Source of the DNA: Candidatus Methylacidiphilales bacterium
Lineage (GTDB): Bacteria; Verrucomicrobiota; Verrucomicrobiia; Methylacidiphilales; CAZTYG01
NCBI GenBank assembly: GCA_033875315.1
Contig: JANRJG010000040.1
Span: 1-64,000 of the forward strand
DNA length: 64,000 nucleotides
Direction of reading: 5' to 3'
Program-made: the position numbers and the translations under genes
Part shown: positions 33,904-51,514 of the stretch, piece by piece
How positions within the stretch are numbered: position 1 is the first letter of the stretch
Layout of the letters: every line of letters starts with the position of its first letter
The notes under the pieces: model-generated
What the model saw: only the letters and a program-made list of their open reading frames with translations
What the model was told of the DNA's origin: nothing
The model's database searches: none

Positions 33904-34030
33904 CGCGCGTAGGATTGGCAGTTCCAGTGTGGATGATCGAATTTGCATGCTCTTTGAGCGTTTCGAAGAGGATCGAAGCATTAATAATCATATAAAGTGC
34001 GGGCTGGCAAGCAACAAGGAAAGTGAACAT

Positions 34031-35446
34031 ATGCCCGGTTGGGATCATCTCGGTAGTCTAGTGAATGAAGAATTCAAACAAGGCCGCGAGGAGGGCAAGG
34101 ACCCCGCCGCACTTGAAGCCTTCCGCCCTGCCTTTGAGGCCGCCGGCAAGAATCCCGAGGCGCTGCGCGACCTGCTCGCACGCATGCAGGCACTGCCAGT
34201 GCGGCCCGACTTTCCCTATCAAGAACCCGATGAGCTTGAGTCCATTCGCGCCCAGCGTCCCCCCGCCGGTCCGGCTCTCCCCCCCCTGACGCAGGATGCC
34301 GACGAACTGTACGACCGGCTGCATGGCGCGTGGCTGGGACGCTGTGCCGGGTGTGCACTAGGGAAACCCTTCGAGGGAATGGGGATGCGCGGAGTGGACC
34401 ACGATGGCCGGCAGCCCTGGCAACGACTCAAGGCCTACCTCACAGCGGTCTCTCCAGAGGAATGGCCCCTGCGGGATTTCGTGCCCGAGCATTCCCCGGC
34501 CGAGAGCGACCCGTCGATCGGCAGAGTGATCTGCCGATCCTCCACACGGGAGCACATCGCTTTCATGGAGAGCGATGACGACATCCGCTACACCGTGCTG
34601 GGCCTCGTGTTGATGCGTGAAAAAGGCCGGGACTTCACCAGTTGGGATGTGGCCTGCAACTGGATCCGGCGATTGCCTTATCATTCAGTATGCACCGCTG
34701 AAACCCAGGCCTACCTCAATCTCGTCACCGGCTACGAATTCCACGCCGGTTCGGACTGGGGCAAGAAGCCGCCCGAAGTCGACTGGGCCTGGGTGCGGAA
34801 TCATCTCAATCCCTACCGCGAGTGGATCGGGGCCCAGATCCGCGTGGATGCGTATGGCTACGCGGCCGCGGGTAATCCGGAGTGGGCCGCCGAGCTGGCC
34901 TGGCGCGATGCGCGCATCAGTCATGTGAAGAATGGCATCTACGGAGCCATGTTCTGTGCCGCCATGATTGCGGCATCCTTTGTGACCACCGATCCCCGCC
35001 GCATTGTCCAAGCCGGACTCGAACAGATCCCCGTCCGATGCCGCTTGGCGGAGGTCATCCGACGTACAATAGAGATCGTCGAACTTCATGGTTGCGATGC
35101 CTCCCGGTTCGAGGTCCTTTTGGGCGATGTTCACACAGCTTTTGAGTCCTATTCCACCGTACACACCCTTACCAATGCCGCGCTTTGCGCCATGGCCGTG
35201 CTCCTGGCCAGAGGTGACTTCCACCAGGGCATTACCCTGGCGGTGATGGGGGCCTGGGACACCGACTGCAACGGGGCCACGGTTGGATCCATCGTCGGTG
35301 CCGTCACCGGTGCCTCCCGCGTGCCGGAACATTGGAAGGGAAGGCTGAACGACACCCTGCGCTCAGAGATTTTCGACTACCATCCTATCCCAATCTCCAC
35401 TTGTGCACGCCAGACTTTTGATCTGGTTCAAAGTTTCCGGAGTTGA
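34031..35446 (+). CDS. ADP-ribosylglycohydrolase-family protein
   Basis: 471 aa. The core matches ADP-ribosylglycohydrolases: DRLHGAWLGRCAGCALGKPF at the start of the helical domain, ESDDDIRYTVLGL (metal-binding Asp cluster) and MGAWDTDCNGATVGSIVGAV (second metal motif, DTDCNGA for the usual DTDTxA). Members cleave ADP-ribose N-glycosidic links; divergent ones may act on other ribosides. An N-terminal extension of about 95 residues precedes the core. The ribokinase gene overlaps its stop codon, so the reaction may feed ribose to that kinase. The exact substrate is unknown. Confidence 0.85.
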   Translation: MPGWDHLGSLVNEEFKQGREEGKDPAALEAFRPAFEAAGKNPEALRDLLARMQALPVRPDFPYQEPDELESIRAQRPPAGPALPPLTQDADELYDRLHGAWLGRCAGCALGKPFEGMGMRGVDHDGRQPWQRLKAYLTAVSPEEWPLRDFVPEHSPAESDPSIGRVICRSSTREHIAFMESDDDIRYTVLGLVLMREKGRDFTSWDVACNWIRRLPYHSVCTAETQAYLNLVTGYEFHAGSDWGKKPPEVDWAWVRNHLNPYREWIGAQIRVDAYGYAAAGNPEWAAELAWRDARISHVKNGIYGAMFCAAMIAASFVTTDPRRIVQAGLEQIPVRCRLAEVIRRTIEIVELHGCDASRFEVLLGDVHTAFESYSTVHTLTNAALCAMAVLLARGDFHQGITLAVMGAWDTDCNGATVGSIVGAVTGASRVPEHWKGRLNDTLRSEIFDYHPIPISTCARQTFDLVQSFRS

Positions 35447-36372
35447 ATACCGCGATATCCTTGAAAAGGTCCGTTAATCCTTCTGTGGTCGTACTCGGCA
35501 GTGCCAACACCGACTTGGTGCTCGAGTGTCCGCGCCTGCCCCGGCCGGGAGAGACGCTCTTGGGGGGAGTATTCCGTCAGGTGCCCGGGGGCAAAGGGGC
35601 GAACCAAGCGGTGGCTGCCGCCCGTGCCGGGGCGCGCGTGTCCCTCATCGGCGCACTGGGCGACGACGACTATGGTCGCCATCTGCGGCGGGGACTTAAA
35701 AAGGATGGGGTAGATCTGAGTCATCTCCGCACGCTTCGGGGTGAGAACAGCGGCATTGCCCTCATCCTGATCGGGGGCGAAGACCGGCAGAATCTCATCG
35801 GAGTCGCGCAATCAGCCAACGACAAGGTGTCGGTGGCGCAGGTGCGTTCCGCTGCGTCTGTGATCCGGGGGGCTGGATGCGTGGTGGCTCAACTGGAAGT
35901 GCCGTTGGCCGCGGTGCAGGCCGCCGCCGTGCTTTCGCGCAAGTTCGGTGTCCCCTTCCTACTCAATCCTGCCCCCGCCCCTGATGGGGCACTGCCCTCC
36001 ACTTTGCTCAAACGGGTCGATGCGCTCGTGCCCAATGAACACGAGGCCCGTCTGCTCACAGGCAGGTCAAGCCCCGAGGCCGCCGCCCGTGACCTCCTGG
36101 CCCAGGGTTGCCGCTGGGTGGTGATCACGCTCGGACGTCACGGTGCCTTCCTTGCAGGTCCCTTGGGCGTGATGCGGCTGAGGGCCCCGCGTGTGCGCCC
36201 GATCGATACCGTGGGCGCGGGTGATTGTTTCTGTGGATGGCTGGCGGCCGGAGTGGCGGAGGGCCTGTCATGGGAGGATAATGCCCGTCGTGCCATCCGT
36301 GCCGCCTCGATCAGCGTCACGCGGGCCGGAGCCCAGGATGCGATGCCGAAGCGGAACGAGGTTGAAGTGTAA
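35443..36372 (+). CDS. rbsK: Ribokinase (PfkB family)
   Basis: 309 aa. Family motifs: GSANTDLVLECPRLPRPGE near the N-terminus, GGKGANQAVAAARAGA (sugar-binding turn), NPAPAP, VPNEHEARLLTG and DTVGAGDCFCGW with the catalytic Asp. Converts ribose and ATP to ribose 5-phosphate in the cytoplasm. Start TTG overlaps the previous gene's stop in a TTGA arrangement, giving translational coupling with the ADP-ribosylglycohydrolase-like gene. Assignment to ribokinase is good, though other PfkB sugar kinases are possible. Confidence 0.85.
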   Translation: MNTAISLKRSVNPSVVVLGSANTDLVLECPRLPRPGETLLGGVFRQVPGGKGANQAVAAARAGARVSLIGALGDDDYGRHLRRGLKKDGVDLSHLRTLRGENSGIALILIGGEDRQNLIGVAQSANDKVSVAQVRSAASVIRGAGCVVAQLEVPLAAVQAAAVLSRKFGVPFLLNPAPAPDGALPSTLLKRVDALVPNEHEARLLTGRSSPEAAARDLLAQGCRWVVITLGRHGAFLAGPLGVMRLRAPRVRPIDTVGAGDCFCGWLAAGVAEGLSWEDNARRAIRAASISVTRAGAQDAMPKRNEVEV

Positions 36373-36420: not shown

Positions 36421-39400
36421 CTAGGGCACGGTCAATTCCCACCAGACAGATTCCTCCTGGCCGAGCGTGTAGGGGGCGGCGTTGTGGGGCGGGGCGTAGA
36501 AGGTGACAAATTCGGGATAAACCGCATAACTTTGGAACCAGTAGCGGTAACGGGAATCAAAACTCAAGGTGGCCAGTCCGGCGGGTGTGGTGATGCGGAG
36601 CGGATTTTCGTTTGGCTTGCTGTTGTCGGCCTTGGCACCGTTCAACCAGCCAAGGCCGAAGTGCACGCGGGCATCGCCCCCTTCAAGGGTCGTTCCCCTG
36701 AGGGGGGTGAAGTTGAGTTCGTAGCGAAGTCCGCCGGGTGTGGCGGTGAGTCGGCCCTGCCACTTCAAGGGCCCGGAGGCGCCTTCTTTCCCGGTGATGA
36801 CGTAGGTCCGGCGTGTGCCCTCGACCGATGAGGTGAGGGTGGGTTGTTGTCCCTCTTGGCGACCGAGGTCCTCATAGACAGGCTTCTGTCCTGGCCGTGG
36901 GGCCGATCCCTGGACCGACCATCCACGGGAGGTGGCAAAGACCCGGCCTTGGTCGTCGTAGACCGAGGCGAGGCCGCCGTCCTTGAGCAGAACAGCACCG
37001 TAGCGTTTGAACTGGATCTGTTCCTGCACATCACTCGTTTTCACACCGGCGGGCAGGACTTTCTTCAAGGGCGGCTTGGCCGGTGTGGCGTCCCCGGTCG
37101 CACGGGAGGCGGCGGTGATGGCAAGGATGTAGGCATTTCCTTCGCCGGGCCGGCCCGTGGAGAGGATGTCAATGGATTCGATGGTCTTGTCAGGGTGTGG
37201 ATTGTCCCAGATCATTTGATAGACTCCGAAGCGGGTGCTGCCGCGGCGCGTGGTGGGGTTGTCCCCCAACCAGGCCACGGTGGCACCGGGGAGGAACATC
37301 GAGCCGTTGTCGACCGCGGAGCCGAACCACCAGTCGTGGATGTTTTCCTTGGGCTTGACCACGACATCGACAAAGGGATCGGGCTTGCCGGGGATCCAAG
37401 CCCTGCGCTCCTCAAGATAATAGACGCGGTAGACAAACTCGGGAATGCCCCAGGCACTGTTGTGCAGGAAATAGAGGCGCTCGGCCTTGCGGTTCACCGG
37501 GATGCCTTTGACTTCGCGCGGCAGCTCGGGGATTTTGGGGTTGGCTCCCGAGATGCCGATGGCGCCATTGCCTTTTGCACTGGTCGGATCGGTCAGCAGG
37601 TATTCGATGCCCCGAAAGTTCTGGCGGCCGGAGGGCAGGGAACGCATGTCATTGTCGGAACCACCGAGATGCCAGCCACGGCGTTGGTTCGGCCCGTCGT
37701 TGTCCGAGAGCGGCCAATTGACATGCCGGCCCAGGTCGACCGGATCAAAAGCCCAGACCGTGGTGTCTGCCTCGGCCGCGCCACCCGGATTGAGCGGGGC
37801 GCCGATGTTGGAGAGGACCGTGGAGAGGATCCGGATGAGTGCGGGCACGGGGTACTCCAATGACTGCACGAGCAAGACGACGATCCGGCCACGGCCGACA
37901 GGAATCTCGCTGAGGACTCCGGGCTGGGTCAGGGCGCGCACGGAGGAGCCGCTCAAGCGTGCGAGCGCCAGGGTATTGTCCCCGGGCTTGACGGTGAACG
38001 GGGCATCCACGTCAAAACCATCGCCGAAGCCACTGGGAAAGAAATCGCCATGGCCGAGACCGGCGGTCAGGGGGTTGCCGCCCCGGAGGAGGGCGCCGCG
38101 ACTGGCCACGGGTTCCAGTTTCAGCTCGGTCCCGGCGATTTCGGAAAGCCAACGGGCTCCGGCGGCATCCAGGCCGTAAACAAACAGCGTGCCGCCGCGA
38201 TCGAACAGACGGGCTAATCCGGTGTGGGAGCCAAGCGCGCCGGCACGGCTGGTCGCCTCGGTGCCGGAGACCACGACCAATTCCGCGGTGGCGGCATCCT
38301 CCGCCGAAAGAACAGGTTTTACAGGTGTGTTCAAACCGAGGCGGTTCTGTAATGGAGAGACGAGCATGTTATTGCTTGAAACCAGGAGGGTCTTTTTATC
38401 TGGAAAAACGGACGGTTCACCGGACCACTGAAGGAGATTGGCCATCAAGCGGGTGGAGGCTGGCTCGAGGCCGAGCGTATCTTGAAGGTTCAATTGGACA
38501 AAGACGACCCGGCCTTTGCCTTCCTGCAATTCCAATAAGGGTGAACCATTTCCTGAGGTCAGATGGACGCGGAAGCGTCCGGTGGCGGGGATCTCCAACG
38601 CCCCCCAGCTGACCAACTGGTCCCGTTCGCGGCTGTGCCAGAATCGGAGATCCTCATTGAGCAGACCGCGGGTGAGCACGGAGGGTCCTTCGAGCCGTGC
38701 GACCATGTTCAAGAGCTGACTAGTCTGCGCGAGCGGACGGGCTAGAAAGCGAGGAAGGCTCCGGTGGTCGAGCACGATGACGCGTCCTCCGGCCTCGATT
38801 TTTTTGCCCAGACCGGCCCGGTCCTCGTCTCCGCACCTGTTCAAGCCTTCTGAGCCGATGAGGAGGAATCCGTCCGGTGCGACCTCCCAATCGGCCAGTT
38901 TCTTGAGTGTGGTGAAAGGAATGTTGTGTGCCCGAAGAAACGCGGCTGCTCCGCCCTGGGGATCGTACAGCGCGAGGGACTGGCCCGCAGGCAGGGCAAG
39001 TCTGTCCGTGGCATATACCGTGATCGGCACATCATCGTAGAACCAGCGACCTGTGGCTTCCATGGAAAGGCGCACTTCCAGACGGAGACGCCGGTCTTCT
39101 TCCACCCGGGGAAGCGGAAACTCGAGATCTACGTAGTTTCGCGAGCCGGGTTGGCAGAGCTGGGTGAAGGATTTTTCGCCGAGCAGGGTTTCCCCGTCGA
39201 AGAGACGGTAGCGGGCATGGACTTCGCCGGGATTCGAGAGGTCGTAGAAGATCCCGTAACGGCTCTGGAATTTCTCACCGGACGAGAAACGGGTGCGCCG
39301 GTCGTGCGAGAAACTCACCAGAGGGAGGATGAAACGCCCGATGCCGCGGTCGACGTGGATCATCGAGGAGGCGAAGCCGGCATCGCGCACATTTTGGATG

Positions 39401-42345: not shown

Positions 42346-44523
42346 ATGATCTCGAATGTTGATTGCCATGAATTGGCGGGGTTAGTGGATTTCGGCAAGG
42401 AGACGCTGGACCCTGCCCGTTCTGTTTGGACATTGGTGGCACCCGGAGTGTGGAAGATCACCCTGGGGAAGCCGGAAGAAATCACTCCGGTTTCTGTCCG
42501 TTGTTCCAACTCCGCCAAACAGGAGGCCTATCATCTGCTGCCTGAATGGGGCATGCAGGTTCCGTTTGAAGTGGAGAAGATCAACTTTCGCCGTCATCGT
42601 CGCGGGTGCACATTGGAACTGCCTTACGACCGGAGCGAGGGCATCTTTGGGCTGGGTCTGCAGTTGAAGAGCCATCTGCAATCGGGCAAGAAAAAACAGC
42701 TCCGAGTCAATGCCGATCCGACGGTGGACACGGGTGATTCCCACGCCCCGGTGCCCTTTTTTGTCTCGACCCATGGTTATGGGATTTTCGTCGATACGGC
42801 ACGTTATGCTTCCTTTTACTTCGGAACCCACGCCAAGGTCGAAGAGTTGAAGCGGAGGGTAGATGAAAAATGGGGATCGAATCCCGTGCCCCACACCAGC
42901 ACCGAGGAACTCTACGCGGCCCATTCCATCGGGAACACAACGGTCATCGACATCCCGGCGGCGGCGGGGGTGGATATCTATTTCTTTGCCGGGCCTGACA
43001 TGAAATCGGCCGTGAGCCGCTATGTGCTTTTTTCCGGGGGCGGCTTCCTGCCGCCGATTTGGGGTTTGGGGAATTGGTACCGGGCCTGCGGAACACACAA
43101 TGCCCGCGATGTGCTCAATCTGGTAAGGCAGTTTCAGAAGGATAAAATGCCTTTCAGTGTCATCGGATTGGAACCCGGATGGCACACTCATTTTTATCCG
43201 AATTCCTTTGTCTGGAGTGAGCGGTTTCCGGATCCGCGCAAGTTCACCGAAGACATGCATGAACGGGGTTACCGCCTCAACCTGTGGGAAAATGCTTTTG
43301 TCCATCCCGCCGCCCCTTTTGCCGAGGAGATCAAGCCCTTCTGTGGTGACGAACTCAGTACCGATGGTCTGGCTCCGGATTTTCTGGACCCCCGCGCCAA
43401 GAAAATTTTCTCCGACCACCACGACCAATTGATCAAGGACGGAGCCGATGGATTCAAATTGGACGAGTGCGACAACGGCGATTTTTTACCCTTCGCTTGG
43501 TCGTTCCCGGAACACACCCAGTTTCCGAGCGGTGCGGATGGTGAACAGATGCATTCACTCTACGGGGTGCACTACCAGCATACCCTGGCGGAGAATTTCC
43601 AACGGCTCGGACGCAGGCAGTATGATCTCGTGCGTTCCTCCGGGGCCTTGGCGGCCCCGCTGCCCTATGTGCTCTACAGTGATCTGTATGGCCACGACGA
43701 TTTCATCCGCGGCTTGGTCAACGCCGGTTTTTCCGGTTTACTTTGGACTCCGGAAGTCCGGCACGCCGACAGCATCGAGGATCTGGTGCGACGGGTGCAG
43801 TGCGTGGCCCTTTCGCCCCTCAGTCTCATCAACGGCTGGTACATTCCCAACCCGCCTTGGAAACAAGTCGAGCGTTCACTCAATGAGATGAATATTTTTA
43901 TGGCAGAATCGGAAGAAATCTCCGGCTTGCTGCGGGGGGTCCTGAATTTGCGCATGCGTCTGTTGCCTTACCTGTACACGGCATTTGCCACCTATGCCCG
44001 GGAAGGGACGCCGCCGTTCCGTGCCCTGGTGATGGACTATCCCGGGGATCGGAATACCTGGCGGTGCGACCGACAGTTTCTCGTTGGCCATGATCTGCTG
44101 ATGGCTCCTCTGCTGGCCAATGAAAAGAACCTTGATGTATACCTGCCTCAAGGGGTATGGCGTAATTTCTTCACGGGCAAGTCCTACCAAGGTGGGGAAA
44201 AGGTTCACTTTGCCGATGTTCCCCTCTCCGAAATGCTTCTCTTTGTGCGCGATGGGGCCATTCTGCCGCTGGCCAGCCCCGGGTACGCCTTCGATGGAAA
44301 AAAACCAATCCAGGTCGTGCCCCACATTTACAGTGAGACCAAGGCCAAAGGGTGTTTTTATGATGATGATGGGAACTCGCTCTCCTATCTATCGGGGGAA
44401 TGTGTTTGGCATGATTGGAGATGGAGTTCTTCCACCGGATTTCAGAAAATGACCCGGGGGTGCAAGAAGTCAGGCGCATTCCAACCCTTTGTACTGGGCG
44501 AACCCGTCCAGGTTGTTTCTTAA
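42346..44523 (+). CDS. GH31 alpha-glycosidase
   Basis: 725 aa, no signal peptide. N-terminal beta domain (SEGIFGLGLQLKSH), TIM barrel beginning WGLGNWYRACG, then GLEPGWHTHFYPNSFVWS, GADGFKLDECDNGDF with Asp373 as the nucleophile, a segment with DLYGHDDFIRG, and a C-terminal beta part (DGAILPLASPG). Family members hydrolyse terminal alpha-glucosidic or alpha-xylosidic bonds. First gene of a probable operon with the 247-aa protein and the second GH2 protein; a 48-bp gap follows. Controlled by the shared operators upstream, by inference. Confidence 0.9.
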   Translation: MISNVDCHELAGLVDFGKETLDPARSVWTLVAPGVWKITLGKPEEITPVSVRCSNSAKQEAYHLLPEWGMQVPFEVEKINFRRHRRGCTLELPYDRSEGIFGLGLQLKSHLQSGKKKQLRVNADPTVDTGDSHAPVPFFVSTHGYGIFVDTARYASFYFGTHAKVEELKRRVDEKWGSNPVPHTSTEELYAAHSIGNTTVIDIPAAAGVDIYFFAGPDMKSAVSRYVLFSGGGFLPPIWGLGNWYRACGTHNARDVLNLVRQFQKDKMPFSVIGLEPGWHTHFYPNSFVWSERFPDPRKFTEDMHERGYRLNLWENAFVHPAAPFAEEIKPFCGDELSTDGLAPDFLDPRAKKIFSDHHDQLIKDGADGFKLDECDNGDFLPFAWSFPEHTQFPSGADGEQMHSLYGVHYQHTLAENFQRLGRRQYDLVRSSGALAAPLPYVLYSDLYGHDDFIRGLVNAGFSGLLWTPEVRHADSIEDLVRRVQCVALSPLSLINGWYIPNPPWKQVERSLNEMNIFMAESEEISGLLRGVLNLRMRLLPYLYTAFATYAREGTPPFRALVMDYPGDRNTWRCDRQFLVGHDLLMAPLLANEKNLDVYLPQGVWRNFFTGKSYQGGEKVHFADVPLSEMLLFVRDGAILPLASPGYAFDGKKPIQVVPHIYSETKAKGCFYDDDGNSLSYLSGECVWHDWRWSSSTGFQKMTRGCKKSGAFQPFVLGEPVQVVS

Positions 44524-44571: not shown

Positions 44572-45315
44572 ATGAAATACATTCGCTTATGTACTATTTT
44601 GAAGTTTCTCCCCATCATTCTACTCGGTTTTTTTCTACTGCCATTGGTCCCGTCCAGGGCGGCTGTAGATTTGAATACGATCCTTCCGAATGATTTTGAC
44701 CCCTCCTTGTTGCAGGAACATTTCCAAAACGACCACTACGGGTTCCTTCTGGACAAACGGGGCTGTCTGCGTTCGATCCACAATGCGGGTGGGGTTGTGT
44801 TGTTCCGCAAAGTGGGGGAATGGATCATCCAAGGCACTCCAAAGGAAGGACCTGATAAATTTACGTATGATGGGGGTATTCCCACCGGCCCTGAGTTGAC
44901 GGTAGTCAAGACTAAAGACGAGGCTGGCAATCCCGTATTCAACTATGTCAATGCCAACATGAGCAACTTTGTGCTTTGGGGCCTCAAGGTCACCTGTCTG
45001 CCGACAAAGATCGTGCTGGAGTACAATATGAAGATCACTCAGGATCTGCCACACGGGGTCGACACTAATTTTATCCTTCCCATCGATACCAACAAGGAAA
45101 TGATGGAAGACGGATTCAATGCCGAGCCGGGCAATCCCCTCGTTTTCAATTTCAAATCCGGCACGGCCACGGTCGCGTTTGACCAGAAGTTTGTCTGGTA
45201 CGGAACGCCAGGCTACAATGCCAGTGCCGGCGGTGCCACGTTCTATCTTGATTTTGGGGGCACGAAAACTGTCGGCGGCAGCGAAACGCTTCGTTTTGAA
45301 ATTGAAGTGCCATGA
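44572..45315 (+). CDS. Secreted single-domain protein matching the giant GH2 C-terminus
   Basis: 247 aa. Signal peptide (FLPIILLGFFLLPLVPSRAA), then one domain. The mature part (YGFLLDKRGCLRSIHNAGGV, later TATVAFDQKFVWYGTPGYNA) follows, in order, the last ~200 residues of the protein at 36421-42105 (YGAVLLKDGGLASVYDDQGR, ATLSFDSRYRYWFQSY). That paralogue carries the domain fused; here it is separate, and its stop overlaps the start of the GH2 gene by 4 bp (ATGA). I infer that it forms a complex with that enzyme. No catalytic motif is recognised. Confidence 0.8.
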   Translation: MKYIRLCTILKFLPIILLGFFLLPLVPSRAAVDLNTILPNDFDPSLLQEHFQNDHYGFLLDKRGCLRSIHNAGGVVLFRKVGEWIIQGTPKEGPDKFTYDGGIPTGPELTVVKTKDEAGNPVFNYVNANMSNFVLWGLKVTCLPTKIVLEYNMKITQDLPHGVDTNFILPIDTNKEMMEDGFNAEPGNPLVFNFKSGTATVAFDQKFVWYGTPGYNASAGGATFYLDFGGTKTVGGSETLRFEIEVP

Positions 45316-48300
45316 TCGGATGGATGGCGCGCTTATCTGTCGGGCTCGGTGTGCTTATCCCTTTTCTGCTGACAGGGGAAGTTGCGCCGCCGCCGGCAAC
45401 GGTTGTTCCTGATCCCGGGGTAACGGCGCAAGATCCGGCACCTGCGATGACACCGGAAGAGGTTCCGGATGTGGTGCGTTTGCCCACTGCCATGCCGCCC
45501 AAACCGGATTGGTGTCGTGATGTTTCTCACCAACTATATCTTCTGCCTCGGGACATCCGGAGCGAAAAGGATCTGGAAGGCAGGAATGGGGTGGATGCCC
45601 TGTCGATGGCCCAGGTTTTTGACCGGGCCTTTCTTTCGGCACACAACATCCTCATTGGTGAGACGCGGGCTTGGATGGCGGACCTGAAGATCCCCGAGGA
45701 TGCCCCACAGGATCGGGGCTTGGTCTTGGAGTTGGATGAAACCCGTGCCATCGCAGACGCCACCCTGTTGGGCAATCCCGTTTTTTTTGACCGCTCCCTT
45801 GCCGCCCGTCGCTGGGCGGGGGGGGAGGGCGTGGTCTTTTTGCCCGTGAGCAAACCGGGCCAAACGGTCCGCTTGTTTTTTCGCGCCAAACATCTCACCC
45901 AACTTTACCCGAACGGGTTCGGACGGTTGCGTCTAAGGACGGCGGATTTGAATGAGACCATCCGTATTTCCCAACCCACCGGCGGTACGGTCAGTGTTCA
46001 GAACGCTTCCCCTTTTCCGGTGCGATTGAAGCTCCAAGTAAGCCATGAAGATTTTTTCGGAACCCCATTGGCTGAAATGGGTGAAAATTTGGAAATAGGG
46101 GGGGGAAGCGCGCTCCCGCTCGATTTGAAGATTCCTAAGAAACCGGATCTTTACAAAACGCGCGTCCAGGCCGTCAGCGCCGGACAGGCAACATTTGATT
46201 ATTCCCAATACTACGGTCGGGAGCATATCCACCATCTTGAGCGGGAAGGGGCTTTCCGCCTCGGAGAGGGCTGGGAGTACTCCGTGCCCAAGGGACCGGA
46301 AAAATCTCCCGGCACCCAGCCCAGGGAAGGATGGAAAAAAGTCACCCTCCCGCATGAAGTGCCGATTGCCGAGTTCAAGTCCAACACGGTCTGGTATCGG
46401 AAGAAGTTCGCCATTCCGGAAGGATGGGGCCCGCAAAGGATTTTTCTGCTTCTCCCCCGCGTGCAATATCGGGCTGAGTTTTTCATCGATGGTGCCCCTG
46501 CTGGGGTTAAGCCAAACTACGAGCTGCCCGGTTCGATTGAGATAACGTCGCACTTAAAAAATGCCAAGGAGCACGAGCTGGCCATACGGGTCACCAATTA
46601 CACGGCCAATTTGGCGCCGGGGCTTCCGGTGACCGCACCCGGTACCGCCTCCGCACCCTCCCGGGGCTTGATCGCGGCCACTTCACATCTCAATCAGGGA
46701 AATAGTTACACGGGATTGGACAGTATCCCGGAAATTTTTGCCGCACCTGCGCTGCGGACGGATTGGGTGGCGGTGGATACTCGCATAGACCCCAGCGAGA
46801 TCCAGGGTCGCTTTGAATTGGTCAACCAGGCCGGGGTGGCCCGCAGTGTCGTTCTGGAACCAGTGGTTTATGACAGGGGCAAAAAAGTTCTGGAATTCCC
46901 CTCTCGAACCGTCGTGGTTTCGCCGGCGAAAACGCAGGTGCTCGAAATGAGGATCCCGTGGGAAAAGCCCGTCATGTGGAATCCGGAGAAACCGCATCTT
47001 TATGAGTTGAGGACGCGCCTGCTCGACAACACCGGTAGCGTGCTGGATGAGCGCCGGGACCGCTTCGGCTTCCGTCAGATCGGCATTTCCGGAGACCATT
47101 TCACCCTCAATGGTGCCCGTTTCAACCTTTACGGGACAGGCCACCTGATGACCAATGGCAACACTTGGCCGGTGATTCCCTGGTCGCCCCGTATCCTGCG
47201 CTACAACTTCAAGGGTGAAAATGGATTCATGCAGGGTCTGTCCGGAAGCCGTCTCGCGGATGAACAGGGAATCTTCATCAAAAATGAAATGTTGGAGCAC
47301 AACGCCCATCATGGGGACCGCTTTGCCTATCAATTGCCTGAGACATGGGAAAACCTCTACAAGGAAATGCAGGCCGTCTACCGGGTGCGGCCGAACGAAC
47401 CCTCCAACTTCATGTGGGATGTGGGCAACGAGGTAAAATTCGACGGTCCGGGGGAGGGAAAGAAAATGGAATCCCTCTTCCAGCGCATCCGCCAAATGGA
47501 TCCCACCCGGCTGGTCACGGTGAGTGGATCTGTGCCCCATCCGCCGGGCTTTGAGATCGTCGACTTCCATGGCTTCGACAGCCCGAGGGACCGGTTTCTC
47601 TATTTTTTTTTCCACCCCGAGCAAAGGCCTGCCCTCTTTCGCAACGTTGGCATCTACTCCCAAAAACCCGCCAGGGAAACGGCACCACCCTGGACCGTTT
47701 TCGAGGACAAAAGCTTCTATCAGGGCCTGGCCCATTTGGGGGGGAGGCCTTTTCTCCTGTCCGAGTCTTTATACTGCCTCAATCCTGGTGCCGAACTGAA
47801 CGGTTTGAGCACCTACCATCCCCTGTCCTGGTCATCTGACTGGGACCGGGGCAACGCCCACAACTACCTCAATTGGGCCACCCAGCGGCGGAACTATCTC
47901 CAATTCGACCGGCAGGCCGGCGTGGCCGGTTTCCTCATCCATGTTGACCGCGCATACACCAGGGCGTTCAGTCCCCTGGCGGCCTTCCCCCTCGACCGGA
48001 AGACACGTTTCTACTCCGGAGAAAAAGCCCGCATGGTCTATTCGTTGCACAACGACATGCTGGAAGAAAAAGATGTGACGGTGAAGTGGACGGTGATGAA
48101 CGGGCCGGTCGTTGTGGCCACGCAGCAATTGGAAATCCGGCTCAAGCCGGCGGTCTATGCCCCCGCCACCGTGTCGTTGGAACTGCCGGCGGAACCGGGT
48201 AAAGACTATGCCTTGTTGACAGAAATGTGGGCCTCCGACGGAACGGCCTATTTCACGGACAGCCAGGTTCTTTCCGTCTTCGACCGCGCACCGATCAAGT

Positions 48301-50246
48301 TGACGGGGGCGGCGCGTTTGGAAATCTTTGATCCTGCCGGGGAAATGGTGGAGTACCTGAAAAAGGCAATGCTGGATTGCGTCGTCCGGAAAAACCTCGA
48401 CAGCTTGGATCCGAATCGGGCCCGGGGCGCTTTTATTCTGATTGGGCCGGAGGCATTGGCGGGTGTCGCACCCGATGGGTTGAAAAAATTGCGCGACATG
48501 GTCAATGCCGGCGCCGATGTTGTGGTGCTGGCCCATCGTCAGCTCCCGAAGTTCCTCCATTTCCCGATCACCCAGACCCAGGCTTCCGAGTACAACCGCA
48601 ACACCAGCGTGGTAGCGGTCGTTCCCGACCGTTTTTCTTCCCTCACGCGCGACTTGCAGGATGATGATTTCCGATTTTGGACCACTCGTGACGCTGACTG
48701 GATGGTGCAATACAATGCCATCGAATTGCCCGACCGCGGCAATTTCCGCCCCCATCTTCTGGCTGGCACCCAGATGCTCACGGAATCCCCGCTTTTGGAG
48801 GTGCGGGAAGGTGCGGGGCGTGTGTTGTTCTGTCAATTGAACATTGAGGGGGCGATTGAAAGTGACCCCATGGCGCATGAGATGTTGTCGCGCATCCTCG
48901 GCTGGCCCGGGGCGGAATCACCTCTTCGTGACATCCGTCCCACTCTCGTGCTGGCTTTTCCCCAATCCAAGGGGGAGAGCATGCGGGCCCGCTTTGGTAT
49001 TTCCGGGGAGGTCATCCAAAAACCCGGGGATCCTTTGGTCCTGGAAAACTACGGAGTGCTGGTGGCTCCGGCGGATGATGCGGAGACCATGGCCTACCTT
49101 CAGAAGCACGAGTCCGTTCTTCTGCCCTGGCTGCGGCAGGGCAACCGCCTTTTCTTGCAAGGACTGGGTAGTGAGGGGGAAGCATGGTTGTCCTCCCTGA
49201 CAGGCAGGACAGTGAAGTTGGAGGACTTTCGCATGGACCGCGGCTACCCTTCGGAAAAAAGTCGCTGGATGCAGGGATTGAGCCCGAGTGATTTTTTTTG
49301 GCAGGGGAACCTGGAAGAGGGGGCCCGAAATATCACCGTCTCCATGAAAGAAAACAGCCGCGCCCTTCTGGGTAAAAAGCGATTGACCGGGGACGGGCTG
49401 ACACCGTTGATCGATCCCGCTTACGCAGGGGTTTGGGAAGTGGGCAACGGGGCGGTCATTGTCAATCTCACCAATGCCTTGGGATATCCCTTGCCTGCCC
49501 CGTTGCGCACCCTCTCGATGATGCTGACCAATGCCGGTGTTTCTCTTGGGGGCAAAGGGGCCGCGCAAGCGGCGACGACCAGAATCCCGGCCGAACGCTA
49601 CTTCACCCTCGATTTGCGTGCCCAGGCCAACCGTCCATTCGCCGATGACCCCGCGAACACGCTGAGGGGTTGGTCGGGACAGGGCCCCGACAACGATTTG
49701 CGGAACATGCCCCTGGGTGCCCAAACCTTCAAGGATATCCCGTTCGACATCATCGACCCGGCAAAAAACGGAGGCAAATCGATCATCGCACTTTCCGGCA
49801 CGCGTGAAATTGGCGTGCTCCCCGCAGAGGTGAAAAACATCCAGGTGGGAAGGAAGGTGGAAGAGTTGTACTTCCTCCACAGTGCCAGCTGGGGATCGCC
49901 GGGTTTCACCTATCGGGTTTATTATGAGGACCGAAAGACTTGGATTCCTGGCATGCCCGATCCTTTTGTCGATGTATTGGTCAAGCCAGAGGAATCGATT
50001 ACTGATTGGTATTCGGCCGGAGCGGTTGAGGCGGGCAAAGTTTTCCTCCCTGACGCGGAGGTGGCCTGGACCACCATGACCCCCGAGTCCGCGAAGGGGA
50101 ACGTGAAGGTGGGTATCTACCTCATGCGTTGGAAAAATCCAAAACCGGACAAAAGTGTCGATAGCATCGACATCCTCTCGCCGGGTAAAGTGGGGAATGG
50201 CCAGCCATTCGTCTTAGGCATCAGCGGTCTCAAAGCGGACCCCTGA
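45312..50246 (+). CDS. Giant GH2-type glycosidase lacking the C-terminal domain
   Basis: 1644 aa, with an N-terminal signal-like segment (MARLSVGLGVLIPFLLTG). A GH2 core follows a long N-terminal region: WDVGNEVKFDG (Asn706-Glu707, acid/base), LLSESLYC (Glu818, nucleophile). Downstream lie an amidotransferase-like part and the module with FKDIPFDIIDP. The protein ends ...FVLGISGLKADP, just where the paralogue at 36421 continues into its last domain; that domain is the gene immediately upstream (44572). Start ATGA overlaps that gene. Target glycan unknown. Confidence 0.87.
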   Translation: MIGWMARLSVGLGVLIPFLLTGEVAPPPATVVPDPGVTAQDPAPAMTPEEVPDVVRLPTAMPPKPDWCRDVSHQLYLLPRDIRSEKDLEGRNGVDALSMAQVFDRAFLSAHNILIGETRAWMADLKIPEDAPQDRGLVLELDETRAIADATLLGNPVFFDRSLAARRWAGGEGVVFLPVSKPGQTVRLFFRAKHLTQLYPNGFGRLRLRTADLNETIRISQPTGGTVSVQNASPFPVRLKLQVSHEDFFGTPLAEMGENLEIGGGSALPLDLKIPKKPDLYKTRVQAVSAGQATFDYSQYYGREHIHHLEREGAFRLGEGWEYSVPKGPEKSPGTQPREGWKKVTLPHEVPIAEFKSNTVWYRKKFAIPEGWGPQRIFLLLPRVQYRAEFFIDGAPAGVKPNYELPGSIEITSHLKNAKEHELAIRVTNYTANLAPGLPVTAPGTASAPSRGLIAATSHLNQGNSYTGLDSIPEIFAAPALRTDWVAVDTRIDPSEIQGRFELVNQAGVARSVVLEPVVYDRGKKVLEFPSRTVVVSPAKTQVLEMRIPWEKPVMWNPEKPHLYELRTRLLDNTGSVLDERRDRFGFRQIGISGDHFTLNGARFNLYGTGHLMTNGNTWPVIPWSPRILRYNFKGENGFMQGLSGSRLADEQGIFIKNEMLEHNAHHGDRFAYQLPETWENLYKEMQAVYRVRPNEPSNFMWDVGNEVKFDGPGEGKKMESLFQRIRQMDPTRLVTVSGSVPHPPGFEIVDFHGFDSPRDRFLYFFFHPEQRPALFRNVGIYSQKPARETAPPWTVFEDKSFYQGLAHLGGRPFLLSESLYCLNPGAELNGLSTYHPLSWSSDWDRGNAHNYLNWATQRRNYLQFDRQAGVAGFLIHVDRAYTRAFSPLAAFPLDRKTRFYSGEKARMVYSLHNDMLEEKDVTVKWTVMNGPVVVATQQLEIRLKPAVYAPATVSLELPAEPGKDYALLTEMWASDGTAYFTDSQVLSVFDRAPIKLTGAARLEIFDPAGEMVEYLKKAMLDCVVRKNLDSLDPNRARGAFILIGPEALAGVAPDGLKKLRDMVNAGADVVVLAHRQLPKFLHFPITQTQASEYNRNTSVVAVVPDRFSSLTRDLQDDDFRFWTTRDADWMVQYNAIELPDRGNFRPHLLAGTQMLTESPLLEVREGAGRVLFCQLNIEGAIESDPMAHEMLSRILGWPGAESPLRDIRPTLVLAFPQSKGESMRARFGISGEVIQKPGDPLVLENYGVLVAPADDAETMAYLQKHESVLLPWLRQGNRLFLQGLGSEGEAWLSSLTGRTVKLEDFRMDRGYPSEKSRWMQGLSPSDFFWQGNLEEGARNITVSMKENSRALLGKKRLTGDGLTPLIDPAYAGVWEVGNGAVIVNLTNALGYPLPAPLRTLSMMLTNAGVSLGGKGAAQAATTRIPAERYFTLDLRAQANRPFADDPANTLRGWSGQGPDNDLRNMPLGAQTFKDIPFDIIDPAKNGGKSIIALSGTREIGVLPAEVKNIQVGRKVEELYFLHSASWGSPGFTYRVYYEDRKTWIPGMPDPFVDVLVKPEESITDWYSAGAVEAGKVFLPDAEVAWTTMTPESAKGNVKVGIYLMRWKNPKPDKSVDSIDILSPGKVGNGQPFVLGISGLKADP

Positions 50247-50327: not shown

Positions 50328-51398
50328 TCAAGCGTCACCGAGGGGACGGATACTTGGCCCATCCACCCAACGGCCCTCGATCATGGTCACGTGGGGCACC
50401 TGCGGAATGCCGTATTGGTTGCGGTTGATCCGGCTGACCACCAATTCCACCGCAGCCGAGCCGGTGTCAAAACTGTTCTGCTCTATTCCGGCGATGTGGT
50501 TCCAGCGGTAGTCACGGTCGAGGTGAATGAAGGAGATATCTTTGGGAATGCGGTAGCCGCCTTTCTCCAGCCAATGGTACACCAAATGGTCAGCACAGAT
50601 GACCACAGTGGTTTTGTTTTCTCGCACATGTTCCAACACCTGCTCCGGGGTGATCTTGTCCGCAAGCAGTGGAGGAATTCTGGCCAGTTTGGGGAGGAAA
50701 CTCGGGGCTCCGGTGTAGGCCGAAAGGTAACGGTATTCCTGCAGGCGCTGGGCTTCTTTATCCAAAACGAGCGTGACCCTGCGGTGGCCCATCGCATGAA
50801 CATGACGCAGGGCCATTTGCAGGCCGCTGAAGTGATCATGGGTCGCGGCATCAAGCTCGGGCAGATGGATGACGTTGCCCACCGAGGCCACCGCGTAGTT
50901 TTCCCATTCCGGTTTGAACCAGGCGGGGGGTGGTTCGCTCAAATGGATCAGCAGTCCGACCATCCGTCGCGTATACAAAGCCCTCTGGAATGAGCGCATG
51001 TCGGCGTGCAAATCTTTCCAATCGAATTGTTCCAGGGCGTAGCCGTGTTCTGAGGCCGCGGCCGTGGCACCACGGAGGTATTCCGATTTGCCGTAGTGTT
51101 CGCGATAGCTTTCCGGTGAGTCGAGAGGTCCGTGACTGAGGATTCCCATGATGGCTCTGACCCCGTTTTTGCGACGTTGTCGTGTTTCGACCATGAGGGC
51201 AGTGACAAGGGGGTTGACGCGGTAGTTTTCGTCTTTGGCCAACTGGAGAATGCGCGCACGCGTTTTCTCCGAGACGCCGGGTCGGTTGCGGAGAGCCATG
51301 CTCACGGCAGCAACACTGACCCCGGCCTTGCGGGCCAAATCCCGGTAGGTGGGGGGACCGGCGTGGTCGCCTTTCGACTTGTTTTTTTCTACTTTCAT
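50328..51398 (-). CDS. LacI-family transcriptional regulator, candidate for TTRACGYRTTWA
   Basis: 356 aa. Helix-turn-helix PTYRDLARKAGVSVAAVSMA, hinge YRVNPLVTALMVETR, ligand domain with GLLIHLSEPPPAW and GYRIPKDISFIHLD. AGG about 8 bases before the ATG at 51398 supports this start; the frame is open to 51428. Divergent from the prepilin operon, with an operator (51515) between them. As the only complete LacI gene beside one of these sites' operons apart from that at 26248, it is my best guess for the regulator of the set; this is inference. Confidence 0.92.
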   Translation of the reverse strand: MKVEKNKSKGDHAGPPTYRDLARKAGVSVAAVSMALRNRPGVSEKTRARILQLAKDENYRVNPLVTALMVETRQRRKNGVRAIMGILSHGPLDSPESYREHYGKSEYLRGATAAASEHGYALEQFDWKDLHADMRSFQRALYTRRMVGLLIHLSEPPPAWFKPEWENYAVASVGNVIHLPELDAATHDHFSGLQMALRHVHAMGHRRVTLVLDKEAQRLQEYRYLSAYTGAPSFLPKLARIPPLLADKITPEQVLEHVRENKTTVVICADHLVYHWLEKGGYRIPKDISFIHLDRDYRWNHIAGIEQNSFDTGSAAVELVVSRINRNQYGIPQVPHVTMIEGRWVDGPSIRPLGDA

Positions 51399-51514
51399 AC
51401 ACCTATAGTTGAGTGAATAAACGCGCACCCGCAGGTAATCGCCTGCCCTGCGATGGTTTTCTTCAGGTCTTGATTGGGTCCATTGAAGCGATTATGGGAA
51501 AGGTAGCAACTCAA

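Follow-up and report, generated by a model that had tools for sequence, protein, structure and literature searches.

A split GH2 gene pair resembling LacL/LacM, with its pieces in reversed order, beside a fused paralogue in a Candidatus Methylacidiphilales genome

GH2 enzymes with a detached C-terminal piece have long been known from LacL/LacM, and in lacLM the gene for the large subunit stands first. The LacL and LacM chains come from overlapping genes and pair as a heterodimer, and their proposed origin is the disruption of a gene for a one-chain GH2 enzyme; GH2 is thereby a known case of a C-terminal supersandwich domain made as a separate chain (PMC5145203; PMC3155831). Here we describe a locus resembling that arrangement, with the pieces in reversed gene order, in a window of 64,000 nucleotides (the whole stretch of DNA that was analysed) from a Candidatus Methylacidiphilales bacterium. 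As with LacL/LacM of lactobacilli (GH2 domain architecture type 2), the C-terminal supersandwich domain, here a predicted fold, occupies a separate overlapping gene, and the pair appears to be derived from a one-chain ancestor. Unlike LacL/LacM, where the large gene comes first, the small gene is upstream, both chains carry signal peptides, the 1644-aa large chain is extended by about 800 residues that lie past the TIM barrel and ahead of the site of the detached domain, and the small chain has no sequence match to Bgal_small_N. The predicted C-terminal fold also matches domain 5 of the one-chain enzymes E. coli LacZ and K. lactis 3OB8, but no sequence relation to one-chain LacZ-type enzymes was detectable, and their intervening domains are different. 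PsGal31A (GH31, Pedobacter saltans, 4XPO) is the closest solved relative of the neighbouring GH31 protein and concerns that gene only. By analogy with these systems, the split pair is most likely a LacLM-like two-chain secreted GH2 enzyme encoded beside a PsGal31A-type GH31.

The preliminary description had reported three open reading frames, for proteins of 1894, 247 and 1644 aa, with the gene for the separate domain directly upstream of the 1644-aa gene and overlapping it by 4 bp; all of this was found as described, the shared letters being ATGA (Table 1). If Met5 (45324) is the true start of the 1644-aa protein, the two genes would instead be separated by a gap of 8 bp. Between the two giant GH2 genes lie the GH31 gene and then the 247-aa gene, and the former is probably the first gene of an operon. 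The LacI-family gene is, from its position, a possible regulator of the locus. The G+C content of the 247-aa gene is 49.7%, against 55-61% in its neighbours. Two genes at 33929-36372, one for an ADP-ribosylglycohydrolase-family protein and one for a PfkB sugar kinase, overlap each other by 4 bp at 35443-35446 and are convergent with the fused GH2 gene.

Table 1. Features of the locus, in positions of the window
Feature	Position	Strand	Basis
Fused GH2 protein, 1894 aa	36421..42105	(-)	ORF; PF00703 5e-11, PF02836 2e-6
C-terminal domain of the 1894-aa protein, homologue of the 247-aa protein	36424..37107	(-)	alignment and profile; model fold matches
GH31, PsGal31A-type alpha-galactosidase	42346..44523	(+)	4XPO E 1e-123; G024 ortholog 57%
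Detached C-terminal domain, 247 aa, LacM-like	44572..45315	(+)	homology; fold matches
Split GH2 paralogue, 1644 aa, LacL-like, without C-terminal domain	45312..50246	(+)	alignment; Pfam; GH2 motifs
ATGA stop/start overlap of the two split genes	45312..45315	(+)	sequence
LacI-family regulator, convergent	50328..51428	(-)	PF00356 2e-11

The 1894-aa protein had been said to end in a domain matching the 247-aa protein, and it does so: residues 32-247 of the small protein align with residues 1678-1894 of the large one (blastp E 2e-9, 25% identity over 220 columns; phmmer 2.5e-10). The aligned part is the whole of the 247-aa protein past its signal peptide, and everything in the 1894-aa protein past its penultimate domain. 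A profile alignment of the C-terminal regions, which had been named as the comparison on which the proposal should stand or fall, likewise gave a significant match; with a profile built from the fused C-terminal domains alone, the 247-aa protein being left out, that protein scores 81 bits (E 1.3e-24), compared with 11.6 bits (E 0.018) for the best of 2,000 shuffles, and even a profile of only three domains, all of another class, matches it at 2.4e-11. Its identity to the fused domains is no lower than that of fused domains between clades, about 0.20-0.25, so the small domain has not decayed and is still under constraint. A clear Sec signal peptide, identified by eye, precedes it, with cleavage between MKYIRLCTILKFLPIILLGFFLLPLVPSRA and A. 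The genome is a 42-contig assembly, and one may ask if a fused gene was simply broken by a sequence error or a misjoin; however, both reading frames are intact inside one 124-kb contig, and a frameshift can neither reverse the order of two parts nor add a signal peptide, which leaves such an artefact with next to no credibility.

The remainder of the composite is covered by the other split gene, as residues 7-1638 of the 1644-aa protein align with residues 20-1664 of the 1894-aa protein (34.6%, 872 bits). No match was found between the 1644-aa and 247-aa proteins (best E 0.27). The paralogue thus stops before the C-terminal domain, as had been noticed earlier, and the two split proteins, covering 20-1664 and 1678-1894 of the 1894-aa protein, make up the fusion/fission pair that had been proposed. 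The 1894-aa protein consists of an N-terminal region, the GH2 N, Ig and TIM-barrel domains, a GATase-like region, a CBM-like domain and the C-terminal domain (residues ~1670-1894). The three GH2 domains are above cut-off in the 1644-aa protein (PF02837, PF00703 and PF02836, respectively). Both giant proteins retain the catalytic GH2 motifs W-D-[IV]-G-N-E and [FL]-[SA]-E, with the E of WDIGNE and of IFSEG conserved in the 1894-aa protein. Conservation within the giant family is highest in the CBM-like domain, which has no Pfam name. In the genome G024, an 811-aa GH5/GH39-like protein encoded next to the fused gene (L021:5797-8232 (-)) ends in the CBM-like domain of residues ~1420-1640 of the 1644-aa protein (8e-26). 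The N-terminus of the 1894-aa protein resembles a lipoprotein signal (..LVLMSGC, lipobox read by eye). It appears from these N-termini that the fused protein is a membrane-anchored lipoprotein, whereas the split 1644-aa and 247-aa proteins, with ordinary signal peptides, are soluble.

The survey of relatives that had been suggested drew on overlapping samples: 60 genomes from the order, 384 from the class, 387 from the phylum, 197 from a second class and 78 from a second family. Outside this genome it brought up seven members of the family (two in G400 and one each in G024, G394, G504, G442 and G571), each of them one continuous protein of 1781-1843 aa that can be aligned with the domain at its C-terminal end. 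Together with the 1894-aa neighbour there are eight fused members in seven genomes against one split locus, and no further split form was present in any of the five samples. The search of genome contigs returned GH2 core relatives only; a 78-aa match with stops in G056 (E 6e-4) was taken as spurious. Three GH2 proteins of the class (L033, L034 and L035, 1368-1457 aa) share the GH2 core and the GATase-like region and end in other beta domains, not in the CBM-like and C-terminal domains.

Separate trees were made for the body, including the 1644-aa protein, and for the C-terminal domain, including the 247-aa protein. The two have identical topology, also when the long outgroup is left out, and each of the split proteins falls, in its own tree, between the group of the 1894-aa protein and G024 and the group of G400, G394 and G504. 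Taken by itself, such agreement would be expected by chance about 1 time in 9, and the decisive branch of the domain tree is supported at only 85/84, so we regard the trees as good but not overwhelming evidence for one event common to both parts. That the small gene might be a recent copy of the neighbour's domain was considered as well and ruled out, since a tree with the 247-aa protein as sister of that domain was rejected (p-AU 0.0014).

The direction of the event is supported by the same comparison. Because the most distant members, G442 and G571, are fused, the split form is best taken as derived, the outcome of a fission; eight fused members surround a single split one, the clades to either side of the split pair are both fused, and the 247-aa and 1644-aa proteins occupy matching branches of their respective trees. 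In Rosetta-stone terms, a composite exists along with parts that cover it, the parts are colocalised, and the split form is rare and nested among composites. The share of the split form, 1/9 in a small sample, narrowly misses the rarity cut-off of 0.1 used for fission (PMC11237513). Gene fusion is reported to be more frequent than fission in general (PMC4009401), which would favor an ancestral split state with the domain joined to the body in other lineages; here, however, that history would require repeated fusion to account for the eight fused members out of nine, distant ones and both flanking clades among them, and we hold it to be very improbable.

What kind of domain was detached is hinted at by structure prediction on two sequences, the 247-aa protein (pLDDT 50) and the fused C-terminal domain (pLDDT 60, model mad0a725edafe). 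Both values are below normal trust; both models are all-beta and retrieve, almost without exception, the galactose-mutarotase-like supersandwich superfamily, with matches to mutarotases, GH65, GH97, GH38, PL33, heparinase-type lyases and domain 5 of GH2 beta-galactosidases. The best Foldseek match of the fused domain, at its pLDDT of 60, is the K. lactis GH2 beta-galactosidase (E 4e-4). With VIA-align the same model matches E. coli LacZ 742-1023 and K. lactis LacZ 744-1025 (Z about 10-11), and the model of the small protein, at pLDDT 50, independently matches the same superfamily (Z 9-10). The stretch 742-1023 of E. coli LacZ is domain 5, which in LacLM enzymes is contributed by LacM. The models thus point to a supersandwich like that of LacZ domain 5 and hence of LacM, and would give a likely fold to a domain missed by Pfam and NCBIfam. 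By sequence, the 247-aa protein has no Pfam match to Bgal_small_N (PF02929), a PF02929 search of the whole genome gave nothing at E<=0.01 while the controls were found, hhalign of the domain against Bgal_small_N returned 3% probability, and the C-terminal domain, run as a profile against solved structures, retrieved nothing. The domain therefore shares with LacZ domain 5 and LacM a probable fold and the C-terminal place, and falls outside Bgal_small_N as defined by sequence. A galactose mutarotase (aldose 1-epimerase) has a conserved catalytic His and Glu, and neither residue is invariant at any position of the nine domains.

We favor an interpretation in which fission of a fused ancestor gave rise to the 247-aa and 1644-aa proteins, exported apart and joined again as a two-chain enzyme, and we think this probable. 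The ancestor, a fused GH2 protein about 1,800 residues long, would have had its gene divided by fission in this lineage. Translation of the two genes would be coupled through the ATGA overlap, the small chain coming first, and each chain would leave by its own signal peptide. Outside the cytoplasm the chains would reassociate, the small one supplying the C-terminal supersandwich domain as LacM completes LacL, to give an enzyme with beta-galactosidase-type activity. Physical association of the two proteins, which the preliminary description had predicted, is itself a good bet by analogy, strengthened by the LacL/LacM precedent and by the fold match to LacZ domain 5. The split form is represented by one locus, without independent replication.

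A different fate for the small chain deserves to be weighed here: though descended from the domain, it may have given up its association with the GH2 body, to which the domain would be dispensable, and become a sugar-binding or sugar-processing protein secreted in its own right. Few parts of the giant family are as poorly conserved as this domain, which does not suggest a tight catalytic role, and the 247-aa protein has a signal peptide of its own and no Pfam or NCBIfam match. However, the 247-aa gene has stayed beside the body gene with the ATGA overlap and in the same tree position, and the nine domains have no invariant His, Asp or Glu, which makes mutarotase-like catalysis unlikely. Independence seems to us rather unlikely on balance, and reassociation of the two chains the better reading.

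The present gene order, as noted earlier, is the reverse of the domain order, the small C-terminal gene lying upstream of the body gene. A single gene break would leave the order A-B, and B-A needs a rearrangement. An economical route to B-A would be a tandem duplication followed by complementary loss. We put this forward as a hypothesis, since no relics of it are left: none were detected in the DNA downstream (3') of the 1644-aa gene, upstream (5') of the 247-aa gene or within the split locus, and none in the signal peptide of the small protein. An 11-residue likeness between the C-termini of the GH31 and 1644-aa proteins (E 0.24) and a 49-residue likeness in an unexpected place, inside the neighbouring regulator region (E 0.002, 1.3-kb search), were both taken as chance. 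In a more elaborate form, the fused gene would have been duplicated in tandem, the body of the first copy and the tail of the second lost, and the B-A order kept because making and exporting the small domain first aids the folding or assembly of the 1644-aa protein outside the cytoplasm, in effect a circular-permutation intermediate at the gene stage; this version strikes us as quite doubtful.

The locus carries a fused and a split version of one giant GH2 enzyme side by side in one genome and so constitutes a natural experiment. If the parts reassociate, a LacLM-type split would have arisen independently in a secreted and much larger GH2 family, and would work in reversed gene order and after separate export. 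In G024 the fused GH2 gene comes immediately after an ortholog of the GH31 gene (57%), with both on one strand, where here the GH31 gene is followed by the domain gene and then the body gene. The nearest match of the GH31 protein is PsGal31A (4XPO, E 1e-123), a GH31 alpha-galactosidase for which five residues around the substrate pocket have been named, Y274, E366, R418, Y432 and W486 (PMC9491548). Equivalents of all five are conserved in the alignment, with positions matched by hand and a shift of one. The GH31 protein has no signal peptide, and the gene content suggests a galactoside locus whose exported GH2 enzymes may work on the outside, with the GH31 enzyme on the inside. In L046 (G000:C3:167590-169176), a second GH31 relative in this genome, an in-frame stop (TAA) interrupts the match.
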